Source: Deltaproteobacteria bacterium UBA2385
GTDB taxonomy: Bacteria > Myxococcota_A > UBA796 > UBA2385
Length of the DNA: 10,715 bases
Assembly (NCBI GenBank): GCA_002343455.1
Contig: DDSR01000408.1
Span: 1 to 10,715 of the forward strand
Direction: 5' to 3'
Part shown: positions 6,765 to 10,715 of the stretch, one piece after another
Position numbering within the stretch: the stretch's first letter is position 1
Layout: each line of letters opens with the position of its first letter
The notes under the pieces: model-generated
The model's database searches: none
The model's input: the letters and a program-made list of their open reading frames with translations, nothing else
What the model was told of the DNA's origin: nothing
Position numbers and translations under genes: made by a program

Positions 6765-8828
6765 CTACCAGACCGAGCAGGCCGAGGGTCGCACCATCGG
6801 CTGGCCGGCCGAGCAGCCGAAGGTGGAGTGGAAGGCCGGCAGGTTGGAGAGCGGGCCGTTGACCCGGTAGCGCGGCGGGCTGTGCGTGTCCGTCGTGGCG
6901 CGCAGGCGCTCGACCTCGGGCGAGGCCAGGGTGCACCAGCCCTGGGCGAAGGCGACGAAGAAGAGCTGGTCCTCGCTGAGCTGCTCCAGGGTGGGCGCTC
7001 CGGCGGGCGTGCTCTTGTAGGCCTCCCAGGCGAACTTCAGCCCGCCCAGATCGGCGATGTTCTCGCCCAGGGTCAGCTTGCCGTCCAGCTTCATGCCGTC
7101 GACCACCTCGTAGGCGGCGTACTGCTGCTCGACGCAGGCGGCGCGCTCCTCGAAGCCCTTGGCGGAGGGCTCGGTCCACCACTCCCGCATCGCCCCCGTC
7201 GGGTCGAAGAGCCTCCCGCTGTCGTCGAAGCCGTGGGTCAGCTCGTGGGCGATGACCATGCCGATGGCGCCGTGGTTGACGGCGGCGGGCAGCGAGCGGT
7301 GGAAGAAGGGCGGCTGGAGGATGCCGGCCGGGAAGACCATCTCGTTGATGCTGGGGTTGTAGTAGGCGTTGACCGTCGGCGCGGACATATGCCACTCCTC
7401 GCGGTCCACCGGCTTGCCGACCTTGTCCAGCTCGCGCCGCACATGGAAGCGGCGGGCTTCGAGCGCGTTGGCGGCCAGCGGCTGCACCGTCAGCTCCATC
7501 GTGCTCGTGTCGAGCCAGGCGTTGGGGTAGCCCATCTTCTTCGTCAGGGTGTCGACCTTTCCCGAGGCTGCGGCGCGGGTCTGCTCGTCCATCCAGCCGA
7601 CATCGGCGAGGTTTTCGCGGAAGGCCCCCTCGATGCCGCCGACCATCTGCAGCACCATCTCCTTGCTGTCGCCGGCGAAGCGGCTGGCGACGTAGTGGCG
7701 GCCCAGCGCGTCCCCCAGCTCGGCCTCGGCGAGGTCCACGCAGCGCTTCCAGCGATCCTTACGCGCGGCCTGTCCGGCGATCTTCTGCCCGAAGAAGGCG
7801 TGCTGCTGCTGGCCGAAGGCGTCGGGAAGGTGAGGGGAGAGGGCGGCGAGCACGGAGAGGCGCAGCCAGGCGCGCAGGGTCGGCAGCGGGGTCGCCGCCA
7901 CCTGCGCGGAGAGGGCGGCGAACCAGGCCTCGTCGTGCACGATGAGCGGGTTGGCCGGGTCCAGGCCCAGCGCGGCGGCGTAGGCGGAGAGGCCCAGTAC
8001 GGGGGCCTTCTTGTCCAGCTCGGCGAGGCTGCGCGGGTTGTAGATGCCCATCATGTCGCGCATCGCCGAGCGGGGCAGGCTGAAGCCCGCGATCTTCTCC
8101 TCCAGGGCGTAGACCGCCTCGGCCGAGGCGGTGGCCTCCTCCTGGGCCGAGCCGGCCAGCACCAGCATCGCGGCGAGGTGGGCGCGGTACTCGGCCTGCA
8201 GGCTGCGGGAGGCCTCGTCCGTGCGCAGGTAGTAGTCGCGATCGGGCAGGCCCAGGCCGGCCTGCCAGGCGTAGCTCTGGTTGACCGTCGGGTCTTTCAG
8301 ATCGGCCCAGGTGAGCAGGCTGAAGGCCGCCGGGATCCCGTTGGCGTGCAGCCCGGCCAGCAGGACCGGCAGATCGGCCGTCGAGGCCAGGCCCTCCACC
8401 GCCGTGAGCAGCGGCTCGATCGGCGTCAGCCCGGCGGCCTCGACCCCCGCCTCGTCCATGCAGCTGCCGTAGAGGTGGCCCAGTCGGCGCCAGTCCTCGG
8501 CCTCGGGCGTGCCCGCCGCCCCGCCGCCCCAAGGATCGGCGGCGGCGCGCTCCAGCAGCTCGTGCAGGAAGAGGCGGTTGTCCTCACGGATCACGCTGAA
8601 GCTGCGCGACCAGACCGCCTGGTCCGCCGGCCGCGTCGTGCGATCCAGCCAGCCCCCGCAGGCGTAGCGGTAGAAGTCCGTACACGGGTCGGCCGCCGGG
8701 TCCATGTCGGCGATCAACGCCGCCAGCGCCTGCGAGCGCTCGTCGGGGGCAGCGACCGCCGTCACGACCGGGGGCGCCGCGGTGGTCGGTGGCTTCGTGG
8801 AACAGGCGAGGATCAGCGTCAGCAGCAT
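6765..8828 (-). CDS. M13 (neprilysin/PepO-like) zinc metallopeptidase lipoprotein
   Basis: This 687-residue protein is a full-length M13 endopeptidase, expected to cleave oligopeptides in the periplasm or at the surface. It has an 8-residue signal (MLLTLILAC, C9 lipidated) and a Pro/Thr/Ala tether. The M13 N-domain starts at PCTDFYRYACGGW, and APTVNAYYNPSINEMVFPAG precedes the catalytic core. The zinc site is HELTH (H528, E529, H532) with GENIADLGG supplying E589 and D593. The C-terminal substrate-binding block VNGPLSNLPAFHSTFGC and the terminal CSVW are canonical, so the enzyme looks intact. The reading frame is open upstream to 8888, but those 20 residues would be translated from the 8838-8907 palindrome. 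I therefore start at ATG 8828, where the lipoprotein signal begins; its Shine-Dalgarno is weak. Only 9 bp separate this ATG from the palindrome. Confidence 0.93.
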   Translation of the reverse strand: MLLTLILACSTKPPTTAAPPVVTAVAAPDERSQALAALIADMDPAADPCTDFYRYACGGWLDRTTRPADQAVWSRSFSVIREDNRLFLHELLERAAADPWGGGAAGTPEAEDWRRLGHLYGSCMDEAGVEAAGLTPIEPLLTAVEGLASTADLPVLLAGLHANGIPAAFSLLTWADLKDPTVNQSYAWQAGLGLPDRDYYLRTDEASRSLQAEYRAHLAAMLVLAGSAQEEATASAEAVYALEEKIAGFSLPRSAMRDMMGIYNPRSLAELDKKAPVLGLSAYAAALGLDPANPLIVHDEAWFAALSAQVAATPLPTLRAWLRLSVLAALSPHLPDAFGQQQHAFFGQKIAGQAARKDRWKRCVDLAEAELGDALGRHYVASRFAGDSKEMVLQMVGGIEGAFRENLADVGWMDEQTRAAASGKVDTLTKKMGYPNAWLDTSTMELTVQPLAANALEARRFHVRRELDKVGKPVDREEWHMSAPTVNAYYNPSINEMVFPAGILQPPFFHRSLPAAVNHGAIGMVIAHELTHGFDDSGRLFDPTGAMREWWTEPSAKGFEERAACVEQQYAAYEVVDGMKLDGKLTLGENIADLGGLKFAWEAYKSTPAGAPTLEQLSEDQLFFVAFAQGWCTLASPEVERLRATTDTHSPPRYRVNGPLSNLPAFHSTFGCSAGQPMVRPSACSVW

Positions 8829-8837
8829 CAGAGCACC

Positions 8838-8907
8838 CGGCGTCAGGTATTGCCTTTTGCCATTTACCGATGGAGGGGCAAATGGCAAATGAGAATACCT
8901 GACGCCG
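8838..8907 (-). repeat. 70-bp palindromic repeat, copy 1 (REP-like)
   Basis: This is an imperfect palindrome. A 14-bp outer stem (8838-8851 with 8894-8907; cggcgtcaggtat and its complement are perfect) is followed by a small internal loop. A 10-bp inner stem (8856-8865 with 8880-8889), a 2-bp stem and an 8-nt loop complete it. It is AT-richer than its surroundings. The same sequence recurs at 9853-9922 in the same orientation, differing mainly in the loop. It fills the space between the RAYT stop codon (it abuts 8908) and the M13 gene start. Confidence 0.95.
8861..8888 (-). promoter_or_regulatory. Promoter-like pair in copy 1, facing the M13 gene
   Basis: On the - strand TTGCCA (8883-8888) and TAAATG (8861-8866) are separated by 16 nt, matching a sigma-70 -35/-10 pattern in five and four of six positions. 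They lie about 33 nt before the M13 peptidase ATG. Both boxes also form stem positions, so their conservation may be structural only. Confidence 0.3.
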
Positions 8908-9834
8908 CTACAGCAGCCCCTCCAGCCGCTCCAGCCAGCGGGCGACCCGCGGGTCGTCCTTGGCCAGGTCCAGCAGGTTGGTGCGCGAGCGGCTGATCGT
9001 CGAGGGCTGCACGCCGAGCGCTCGACCCAGCTCCGCCTGGGCCTGGCCCGTCGCCCGCGGCAGCCACCACAGCGCCAGCCACCAGGCCGGGTTCGGCGCG
9101 AGGCCTCGCCCGCGGACCTGGATCTCCTCCCGCGGCAGCCCGGTCACCGTCGCGAGGGCGAACCAGGCCTCGTCCTCTCCCATCGGCCAGGTCGCCCTTC
9201 CCGCTCGCGGCGGGTCTCGCTCCGCGGCCGGCTCGGGCGCGGGGACCACGCTCTGCCCCAAGCCCTCGGGGTCGAAGCCCTCCGGCCCCTTCTGACGGCC
9301 GATGCGCACCTCCCGCAGATAGTCGCGGTAGGCCTCCACCGAGCCGAACATCGCCAGCAGCTCCCGGGTCTGCAACCAGTCCGGCCGCGGGCTCCGGCCC
9401 GTGTAGGCCGCGTGGCTGGTCCACAGCGCCTGGTCCTCGTGCGGCACCAGCCGGGCCTGCACCGGGTTGAGGTGCAGGTAGGCCAGCAGGTGGATCCAGT
9501 AGGGCTCGCTCACGACCGCCTGGCTGCGGTAGCGGGCCCGCCAGACCGGGCCGTCCCAGCCCGAGACGCGGTTGAGCTTGCGGCTGTACTGCGCCTGCAG
9601 GTACTGCATCGCCGGGGCCAGCCCCGTCGGCCCGCTCTGCACCATCAGGTGGAAGTGGTTCGGCATCAGCGCATAGCCGTGGATGCGCAGCCCGTACCGC
9701 CGCGGCAGCTCGGCCAGCAGCTCGATGAACTCGATGCAGGCCTGATCGCTGTGGAAAAGCACCTGCCGCCGCGCCCCCCGGTTCATCAGGTGGTGGCGGC
9801 TGCCGGGCTCGTCAAGGCGGGGGGTGCGGGGCAT
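8908..9834 (-). CDS. RAYT / IS200-like Y1 transposase with C-terminal HTH
   Basis: This 308-residue protein is a REP-associated tyrosine transposase. The N-terminus MPRTPRLDEPGSRHHLMNRG is typical of the family. The HUH motif is MPNHFHLMV (H60, H62), and the catalytic tyrosine is probably Y83 in QYSRKLNR. The block WIHLLAYLHLNPVQARLV is also characteristic. Beyond the Y1 domain a C-terminal extension carries a helix-turn-helix-like segment (about 263-290, AELGRALGVQPSTISRSRTN), as in larger RAYTs. The enzyme would nick and join single-stranded DNA at hairpins such as those flanking it. The reading frame is open upstream as far as 10122, through the palindrome, but the family's usual N-terminus begins at ATG 9834. 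No Shine-Dalgarno is seen there: the bases before it are pyrimidine-rich on this strand. All key residues are present, so it may be active. Confidence 0.92.
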   Translation of the reverse strand: MPRTPRLDEPGSRHHLMNRGARRQVLFHSDQACIEFIELLAELPRRYGLRIHGYALMPNHFHLMVQSGPTGLAPAMQYLQAQYSRKLNRVSGWDGPVWRARYRSQAVVSEPYWIHLLAYLHLNPVQARLVPHEDQALWTSHAAYTGRSPRPDWLQTRELLAMFGSVEAYRDYLREVRIGRQKGPEGFDPEGLGQSVVPAPEPAAERDPPRAGRATWPMGEDEAWFALATVTGLPREEIQVRGRGLAPNPAWWLALWWLPRATGQAQAELGRALGVQPSTISRSRTNLLDLAKDDPRVARWLERLEGLL

Positions 9835-9852
9835 GGGAGGAGGATCCGGATC

Positions 9853-9922
9853 CGGTGTCAGGTATTGCCTTTTGCCATTTACCGGTGAGCGGGGAAATGG
9901 CAAATGCGAATACCTGACGCCG
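9853..9922 (-). repeat. 70-bp palindromic repeat, copy 2 (REP-like)
   Basis: This copy has the same design as the one at 8838-8907: an outer stem 9853-9866 with 9909-9922 (one T.G wobble at 9856/9919), the same internal loop, an inner 10-bp stem (9871-9880 with 9895-9904), a 2-bp stem and a different 8-nt loop. Apart from the loop it differs from copy 1 at only about three positions. It overlaps the end of a 12-bp perfect palindrome (ggatccggatcc, 9842-9853) just ahead of the RAYT start. Its other end abuts the remains of the GH18 gene. Confidence 0.95.
9876..9903 (-). promoter_or_regulatory. Promoter-like pair in copy 2, facing the RAYT gene
   Basis: TTGCCA (9898-9903) and TAAATG (9876-9881) on the - strand are spaced by 16 nt, exactly as in copy 1, and lie about 42 nt before the RAYT ATG. 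The spacer bases differ between copies while the boxes do not, but the boxes are also stem sequence. Confidence 0.3.
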
Positions 9923-10715
9923 CCCCGGGGCAGGGGTGGTCGCGGTTGACCGACCACATCGACAGCAGGCCCATGCCTTGAGAGAGGGCGAAGCTGCGGA
10001 GCTGGCCACCGTCCTCCAGGTCGAAGGTCTCGCTCAGCACATCGTTCAGGCCGATCATCGGCGTCGCGCCGATCCTGGCCCACAGCTCGTCCGCCGTCGG
10101 CGAGAGGCCCGCCTCGGTCCATAGGGTCGTCATCTGTTCATGCAGGCTGGTGACGGCTTCGATCGCGTACTCGCCCATCCGACCATCGGGGTCGGGCGGC
10201 GAGCTCGCCCTGCAAGGCCGCGATGGCCGCGTTGCGACGGGTCACGCTCTCGTCATGCGCAAGCCAGGCTCCCTCGATGTCGAAGTCGATCGCGGCCAGC
10301 TCCAGCCTGTCGACGATGGCCCGGAGCTGGTCGACCAGCTCGTCGGCGCTGTCGCAGGCGGCCGCCAGCGGCGTGCACGAGGCCCCTCCCAGCGAGACGA
10401 CCGCGTCGCCGCCTGCAGCGCGCACCCGGTCGATCTCGTCGTACAGGAAGTACTGGCCGGACTCGCCCCAGGAGTCGGGTCCCGCTTCCAAGCCGTGGTA
10501 CCCGCCCCAGCTCGGCGTACAGTCGCTCGGCCCTTGCGCCACCAGGAAGCCCAAGGTGTAGCGGAGGACGCCGGTCGCCTCGGCGATGTCCCCGATCCGG
10601 GCTACCGGGTACAGCGTGGAGTCGACGAAGGGCCGGAAATCCAGCTCGGTTCCCCCGCCATCTCCGGCGGTTCCCCCGCCATCTCTGCCGGTTCCTCCCC
10701 CGTCCCCGGCGGTTC
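9879..10715 (-). pseudogene. GH18 chitinase-like lipoprotein, broken and 5'-partial
   Basis: The frame is open from the window edge. A DGGG-rich tether leads into a glycoside hydrolase 18 domain beginning FRPFVDSTLYPVARIGDI. It has VVSLGGAS (the SxGG strand) and IDFDIEGAW (the DxDxE catalytic motif; the acid is the codon at 10273-10275). After AALQGELAA, near 10195-10210, coding continues only in another frame, as PDPDGRMGEYAIEAVTSLH and then GLLSMWSVNRDHPC, a typical GH18 C-terminal region. Compared with relatives, about 45-60 residues around the MDYG substrate-binding strand are missing, so this is an out-of-frame internal deletion. The retained frame runs into the palindrome at 9922 and stops at 9879, adding IRICHFPAHR. 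The intact enzyme would cleave chitin-like beta-1,4-GlcNAc polymers. An assembly error is the main alternative. Confidence 0.8.
10648..10710. repeat. Three 21-bp tandem repeats in the GH18 tether
   Basis: Three 21-bp units run back to back (10648-10668, 10669-10689, 10690-10710), with a fourth starting at the window edge. The first two differ at two positions and the third is more diverged. On the - strand each encodes seven residues of the form T-x-x-D-G-G-G. This is the linker between an unseen N-terminus, presumably a lipoprotein signal, and the GH18 domain. Confidence 0.85.

Follow-up and report, generated by a model that had tools for sequence, protein, structure and literature searches.

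The stretch of DNA discussed here, called the window, is the 10,715-nucleotide (nt) contig DDSR01000408.1 of Deltaproteobacteria bacterium UBA2385, a member of the phylum Myxococcota, and its subject is a unit at positions 8838-9922 in which a gene for a Y1 transposase lies between two long hairpins. The gene (8908..9834, minus strand) codes for 308 amino acids and is flanked by a direct repeat of 72 nt (8837-8908 and 9852-9923, 90% identity). Aligned as inverted repeats, the same 70-nt arms of this repeat are 77% identical, so the two copies do point the same way, as an earlier note on this DNA had claimed when it described a RAYT-like (REP-associated tyrosine transposase) gene between two same-way palindromes. 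Either copy is a palindrome with 31-nt arms and 8 nt between them, the arm complementarity being 87% and 84%. Folded as single-stranded DNA, the left and right hairpins reach -26.9 and -27.8 kcal/mol (z = -8.05 and -7.38), and none of 200 shuffles folds as well as either. Other details in the note are borne out too. The internal-loop mismatch is present in both hairpins, the stop codon (8908-8910) adjoins the left palindrome, which ends at 8907, and the GTAG said to be missing stands immediately 5' of the arm in 1 of 39 arms of the genome, where it is supplied by the TAG stop of the transposase. As argued below, the hairpins look like the paired end repeats of a known, little-studied class of element and not like a new kind of repetitive extragenic palindrome (REP).

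The unit is made of four arms that read as terminal inverted repeats (TIRs). Its left outer end is an arm of type A with the middle block GCCTT (8838..8865, plus strand, outer edge 8838), followed by a 14-nt spacer in the loop region of the left hairpin (8866..8879) and by the hairpin's inner arm, of type B with CTCAT (8880..8907, minus strand), which adjoins the stop codon. On the other side of the gene lie a type A arm (9853..9880, plus strand) as the inner arm of the right hairpin, a second 14-nt loop spacer (9881..9894; both spacers were placed by repeat search and folding), and a type B arm with CGCAT (9895..9922, minus strand), which is the right outer end with its edge at 9922. Arms 8838-8865 and 9895-9922, at the outer edges, together form an inverted repeat.

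The transposase matches PF01797 (E 4.5e-8) and scores 60.2 bits with the NCBIfam model REP_Tyr_transpos, whose cut-off is 80; 569 homologs are found at E<=1e-10. Together with an AlphaFold model (mean pLDDT 91.4), these matches mark it as a TIRYT- or RAYT-like Y1 enzyme. Both histidines of the HUH motif H60-F61-H62 (9649..9657, minus strand) and the predicted catalytic Tyr119 (9478..9480, minus strand) are kept in 51/51 aligned homologs, and Y119 aligns with the tyrosine counted as residue 115 of 4er8. The model fold resembles the IS608 and ISDra2 transposases, with an additional helical C-terminal domain (residues 218-308; 8911..9183, minus strand) that is predicted to fold like DnaA domain IV. 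The residues Q95, E100, H101, and R104, with which the E. coli TnpAREP reads GTAG, are replaced by R99, S104, Q105, and V108 in the window protein, and E. coli W94, whose role is unclear, corresponds to W98. In the rest of the genome assembly, the protein has two further matches, one 41% identical and one partial (32%), and so no close relative.

Repeats of the same family as the hairpins occur elsewhere in their own genome, a metagenome-assembled-genome-like (MAG-like) assembly of 496 contigs that is 87.6% complete. BLAST with the 72-mer gives 58 matches, each palindrome being counted on both strands; some are near-full copies of about 67-72 nt, and the rest are separate arms. The arm pattern GTCAGGTATTNNNNNTTGCCATTT, with up to 3 mismatches, occurs 39 times (28 of them exact); the reversed pattern occurs once, so the family is not due to chance. 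The 39 arms, taken over 24 nt, fall into 12 inward-facing pairs within 200 nt and 15 unpaired arms, with no other close arrangement. Since the spacer between the 24-nt arms differs from copy to copy (13-14 nt in 6 pairs, 45-107 nt in the other 6), the repeating unit is an arm of about 28 nt and not the 70-bp repeat of the earlier note. At least one unpaired arm, on contig C386, has a degenerate partner at up to 4 mismatches. A truncated arm (C91:14321-14343) sits at a contig end, and in an assembly of 496 contigs the arm count is therefore probably a lower bound.

Nine longer or single-armed copies were compared with the transposase unit and share just the arms with it beyond short chance hits; the 67-72-nt copies offer little interior for such a comparison. 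Simple internal deletion of the window unit as the source of these copies is unsupported, since only the arms match. The base before the GG of the arm is C in 35/39 arms, and A stands at -7 in 19/39, compared to 14.8% A in the same loci, preferences that fit an element edge or a target preference alike. The two arms of a pair have equal middle blocks in 0/12 pairs, compared to 2.70 expected under random pairing (P = 0.0215, uncorrected for shared descent). Homodimer avoidance does not hold as a general rule, since in a related genome, G032, both arms are exact in 32/38 pairs. On contig C393, two unpaired arms (L047, 1081-1104 and 2120-2143) point in the same direction about 1 kb apart with similar flanks, as if they were part of a tandem duplication.

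Searches with the 72-mer and the arm pattern gave no match outside the own genome. The earlier note had proposed a search of the genome and its relatives with the long repeat; the 72-mer has many matches at home and is found in 1/58 genomes, the own one, and the arm pattern at up to 1 mismatch is in 1/63 genomes of the order, again the own one. The exact arm pattern has no match in viral contigs, nor the 72-mer in plasmids, in collections that may omit the own genome. Relatives of the protein are present in 21/58 genomes at E<=1e-10 and in 36/377 genomes of the phylum at E<=1e-40, the own genome included in both counts.

The surroundings of these related genes are what identify the arm. The left and right flanks of 53 full-length or near-full loci, including the window and its paralog, were compared; 2 lie at contig edges, and in 42 of the 51 tested there is an inverted repeat beside the gene that scores more than 1 point above the top value from 40 shuffles. 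In most of them, the gene stands between two single TIRs, each about 18-38 nt long, that start with GGGGTCAGG, GGTGTCAGG, or a near variant. Because the relatives mostly carry one TIR per side, the window arm is best read as a TIR, and the window hairpin therefore as a head-to-head TIR pair. The unit would then have ordinary TIRs at its outer edges, with one TIR of the opposite direction between each of them and the gene. Hairpins at both ends occur in 3 of the 42 TIR-positive loci (the window, its C91 paralog in the same genome, and G032), and L254 has an additional TIR pair at one end. By these counts, few close relatives have hairpin ends, but the window does not stand alone.

An earlier set of 41 loci, 4 of them at edges, had given a repeat in 25 of the 37 tested. 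Weaker or truncated loci were kept out of the 53-locus survey, and L033, L062, L081, and L085 among them lie at contig edges; of one 80-locus relative search, 10 loci entered the earlier set, and 2 of these are also in the survey. Among loci outside the survey, the earlier set gave a repeat for L072, L079, L086, L087, L091, L092, and L093 and none for L070, L071, L073, L077, L078, L088, and L090. The distant loci L072, L079, and L086 have self-complementary repeats on either side of the gene. L071 possibly has them on both sides as well, though it was scored repeat-free in that set.

Genome-wide counts cover four TIRYTs, and all four have a private multi-copy repeat. For example, in G008, whose transposase is 53% identical to that of the window, a single TIR stands on either side of the gene, yet there are 29 TIR sites genome-wide. 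These include 7 inward dimers whose starts lie about 36 nt apart, 1 further close arrangement, and 15 sites without a partner. In G032 (41% identical), the gene lies between two TIR dimers, and the genome holds 80 arms, with 38 inward pairs, 1 other arrangement, and 4 unpaired arms; 72 of the 80 arms are exact over the 21-nt pattern. This dimer family appears very uniform and is perhaps recently active. The C91 paralog, also 41% identical, has its own palindrome at 37 sites of the genome (control 0). Its flanking palindromes are near-perfect (L032, 1443-1469 and 2401-2427), with the core ACTAGCTAGTGCC N GGCACTAGCTAGT, and some copies extend to GGTGTG...CACACC. Single-TIR and dimer forms are thus found side by side.

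A TIR almost the same as window arm A, GGGTGTCAGGTATTGCCTTTTGCCTATTT, is present at about 1443-1471 of L241, in a genome (G084) from another class of the phylum. The TIRYT there is just 45% identical to that of the window, and the opposite end deviates in the middle block. Either a long-lived TIR or transfer could account for the near-identical arm.

Three of the 12 paired elements were compared with the orthologous sites in G001, a sister species of the same genus, so that the comparison spans species and not strains of one species. For the elements on contigs C109 and C63, the G001 site is empty. The C109 dimer lies at the junction of an ABC ATPase and its permease, and one 574-amino-acid open frame takes in the dimer and both genes (L169 794-2518). 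In G001 (L182), ATPase and permease have a frame each, with a slight overlap; the permease start was judged by eye.

The unit at 8838-9922 is thus likely a TIRtron, with a DnaA-tailed TIRYT and TIR-dimer ends, that acts on single-stranded DNA and spreads its dimers in trans. Each end is an inverted TIR dimer and so would be a complete mini-element, resembling a REPIN or a miniature inverted-repeat transposable element (MITE). Most likely, the transposase acts on single-stranded DNA, in which two TIRs that abut or lie close together would form one long hairpin. Its foot would be cut by the HUH/Tyr domain near GGYGTCAGG, and the excised hairpin would rejoin at another place. TIR dimers could spread in trans by this route, as proposed for RAYTs and REPINs. 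The evidence in hand is the repeat family, its pairing, the TIRs near related genes, the catalytic residues, the predicted fold, and the two empty sites; from it we infer binding, cutting, a single-stranded intermediate, and movement in trans. The observation is real and well supported, and the unit falls within an established class, its arrangement of the ends being uncommon.

Several points weigh against this interpretation. Movement of the element is deduced from sequence and none has been seen, and a single copy of the complete unit does not prove that the gene itself transposes. The third site, C163, was uninformative, and the C109 and C63 junctions in G001 are too diverged to give base-exact ends. 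Fifteen of the 39 arms are unpaired, though the fragmentation into 496 contigs may split copies. No TIR was found by the survey in 9/51 loci, four of them from one genome (G024). The Z score of the DnaA-like domain is within the range that the comparison tool flags for common helical arrangements, and Pfam Bac_DnaA_C is found in 4/51 members only, other helix-turn-helix (HTH) families in more. Two sequence motifs also deviate by a residue from those of the nearest published subclass, as described below.

Other explanations account for part of these data. The earlier note had proposed a new REP family. In such a reading, the gene would be a classical RAYT and each hairpin a long REP that spreads as a single unit. 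The protein is of the same superfamily (its REP_Tyr_transpos score being under the cut-off), W98 stands at the place of E. coli W94, and a RAYT-like gene does have its own multi-copy family of hairpins that flank it and recur. However, the 39 arms have no conserved GTAG foot, the four GTAG-reading residues are replaced, the repeating arms pair with each other, mostly in inverted dimers, and in relatives such an arm mostly stands once on each side, as a TIR, all of which makes a new REP family very unlikely. The proposed novelty is not supported, since the arms match a described end family in kind: by the published description available here, they look like the TIRs of TIRYTs and TIRtrons, there are TIRs at 42/51 loci, and L241 has a nearly identical arm. 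The earlier note was correct in its observation, and the name it chose belongs to a closely related class.

An insertion sequence of the IS200/IS605 type, with subterminal same-way hairpins and with the scattered hairpins as its decayed or mini copies, would explain why two same-way hairpins surround a Y1 transposase with the fold of the IS608 and ISDra2 enzymes. It would not explain why the gene is in one copy, why the protein has an additional C-terminal domain, why the outermost arms are mutually inverted as in relatives with plain TIRs, or why the 9 copies compared share just arms with the unit, and it is accordingly quite unlikely. The hairpins might also be host sites, such as terminators or protein-binding sites, between two of which a transposase landed by chance, and many copies do lie near gene ends by a simple codon score. 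Chance placement is hard to reconcile with the C91, G008, and G032 TIRYTs, each flanked by its own, different, multi-copy repeat, or with the two sites that are empty in G001, and host sites are the most improbable of these explanations.

If the unit is a TIRtron, its transposase may read the TIR in two parts. An ungapped alignment of 38 of the 42 TIRs (without L032, L059, L064, and L238) starts with GKGTCAGR, which a variable stretch separates from conserved inner positions (C15 in 30/37, T18 in 34/36, T19 in 35/36, and T26 in 23/24). The rows were anchored on a GTC/GAC/GCC triplet, which fixes positions 3 and 5 in advance but leaves 15-26 free. Mantel tests on 34 of the 42 TIR-positive loci relate the outer 8 nt to the N-terminal domain with the C-terminal one controlled (partial r 0.23, p 0.017), and not to the C-terminal domain with the N-terminal and middle parts controlled (0.08, p 0.19). 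Positions 9-26 follow the C-terminal domain with the N-terminal and middle parts controlled (0.20, p 0.005), and not the N-terminal domain with the C-terminal controlled (0.09, p 0.13). The loci omitted were L032 (another motif), L059 (repeated end), L064 (aberrant inner half), L065 (short), L076 (deviant start), L238 and L239 (near copies), and L250 (too similar).

The HUH domain might then read and cut the near-constant outer GKGTCAGR, and the captured DnaA-domain-IV fold might read the middle and inner part (consensus YTNNCANTTRMCACTT). This is a tentative idea and rather doubtful: the tests were several and exploratory, the effects are small, and shared descent is removed only in part. Against it, positions 9-26 correlate with both the N-terminal (0.26) and the C-terminal (0.30) domain when uncontrolled, and the effect resides mainly in positions 9-17 (0.18, p 0.005), with 18-26 alone falling short of it (0.12, p 0.07). 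An inner TIR that is a DnaA box was rejected: for TTWTNCACA, the value in 31 TIRs is 5.13 against 4.95 in shuffled inner halves (a fraction of 0.118 of the shuffles reaches it); shorter variants give 0.036 and 0.010, having been picked after the motif was seen. If the idea is true, a single-strand transposase would take its specificity from a binding domain of the replication-initiator type, and reading by the DnaA-like domain would give each transposase its private repeat family.

Right of the unit, the minus strand has two overlapping frames (9879-10178 and 10138-10554) that match no family in a Pfam search, and the stop codon of the first falls within the right hairpin. A 27-nt repeat occurs three times with 21-nt spacing at 10647-10715, the end of both window and contig. 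An Rfam search of 8600-10200 gave four matches, all far under their gathering scores and discarded.

Among known systems, IS200/IS605 elements are not known to have terminal inverted repeats or to duplicate the fixed short target beside which they insert. The window unit shares with IS608 and ISDra2 the Y1 HUH catalytic fold and a same-direction hairpin at each end; it differs in the extra DnaA-like domain, the inverted TIRs, and the single gene copy. Both features of GTAG-type REP/RAYT systems that were looked for, a GTAG or GTGG foot and the GTAG-reading residues, are lacking. The CGTC REPs, as described in the part of Di Nocera 2013 (PMC3733652) used here, have the letters CGTC in common with the window arm, which has CGTC or TGTC near its start. 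They have stems of 8-9 bp with an unpaired CGTC foot and no transposase, whereas in the window CGTC lies within an arm of about 28 nt.

The REPINs and RAYTs of Pseudomonas, by the account drawn from Bertels and Rainey 2011 (PMC3116915), are closer in organization. Both systems have inverted doublets that fold into hairpins, a repeat type tied to a transposase type, and singlets as likely remnants. A multi-copy inverted pair that forms one hairpin, as in a REPIN, is present here in 12 inward pairs. A half that folds on itself is not seen in the two window folds, where the arms pair with each other. The REPIN halves are REPs while the window halves are TIR arms, and excision reads exist for Pseudomonas while the window family is known from its sequence.

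The protein is closest to TnpAY1 subclass 2.1 in the portions of Quentin 2018 (PMC6006769) consulted. They place 20/26 TIRYTs there, report no REP-like sequence beside its genes, find such genes in 14.9% of the surveyed strains, and name delta-proteobacteria among the prevalent hosts. The tabulated 2.1 motifs are NHVH/NH[YF]H, W[EQ]/FQ, and YIELNP/Y[IV]HLNP. The window's NHFH fits NH[YF]H, and it shares the C-terminal HTH/DnaA-like domain and TIRs in place of GTAG REPs. Its WR (in which R follows the conserved aromatic residue) and YLHLNP are each one residue off, and the window is therefore filed as a TIRYT nearest to 2.1. It also differs in being flanked by REPIN-like TIR dimers that recur in the genome. 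The same portions question whether the DnaA-like tail recognizes the TIR, given that GGGGWSAS does not match a DnaA box.

The best match is the class for which Di Nocera 2013 coined the names TIRYT (genes) and TIRtron (units), an assignment made by description, with the figure TIRs of PMC3733652 and ISfinder outside the comparison. In the part of that paper used here, TIR families are single, dimeric, or grouped, some are self-complementary (e.g., at Stenotrophomonas maltophilia ORF 1152), and some, not all, TIRs start with GGGGWSAS; "myxococc" and "deltaproteobacteria" have no occurrence in its main text. Like these units, the window has a RAYT-like gene between long TIRs and both single and dimeric repeats. 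Its TIR start, GGYGTCAG, is one base off GGGGWSAS (the 38 TIRs give GKGTCAGR), and at either end two unlike TIR arms make up a dimer. Subclass 2.1, which makes up most TIRYTs according to PMC6006769, has its DNA partners and the role of its DnaA-like tail left open in the text consulted. The comparison of TIRYTs with their repeats provides a TIR motif and a testable division of labour between two protein domains, and the gene-specific repeat families, along with their dimer forms, connect TIRtrons with the REPIN idea.
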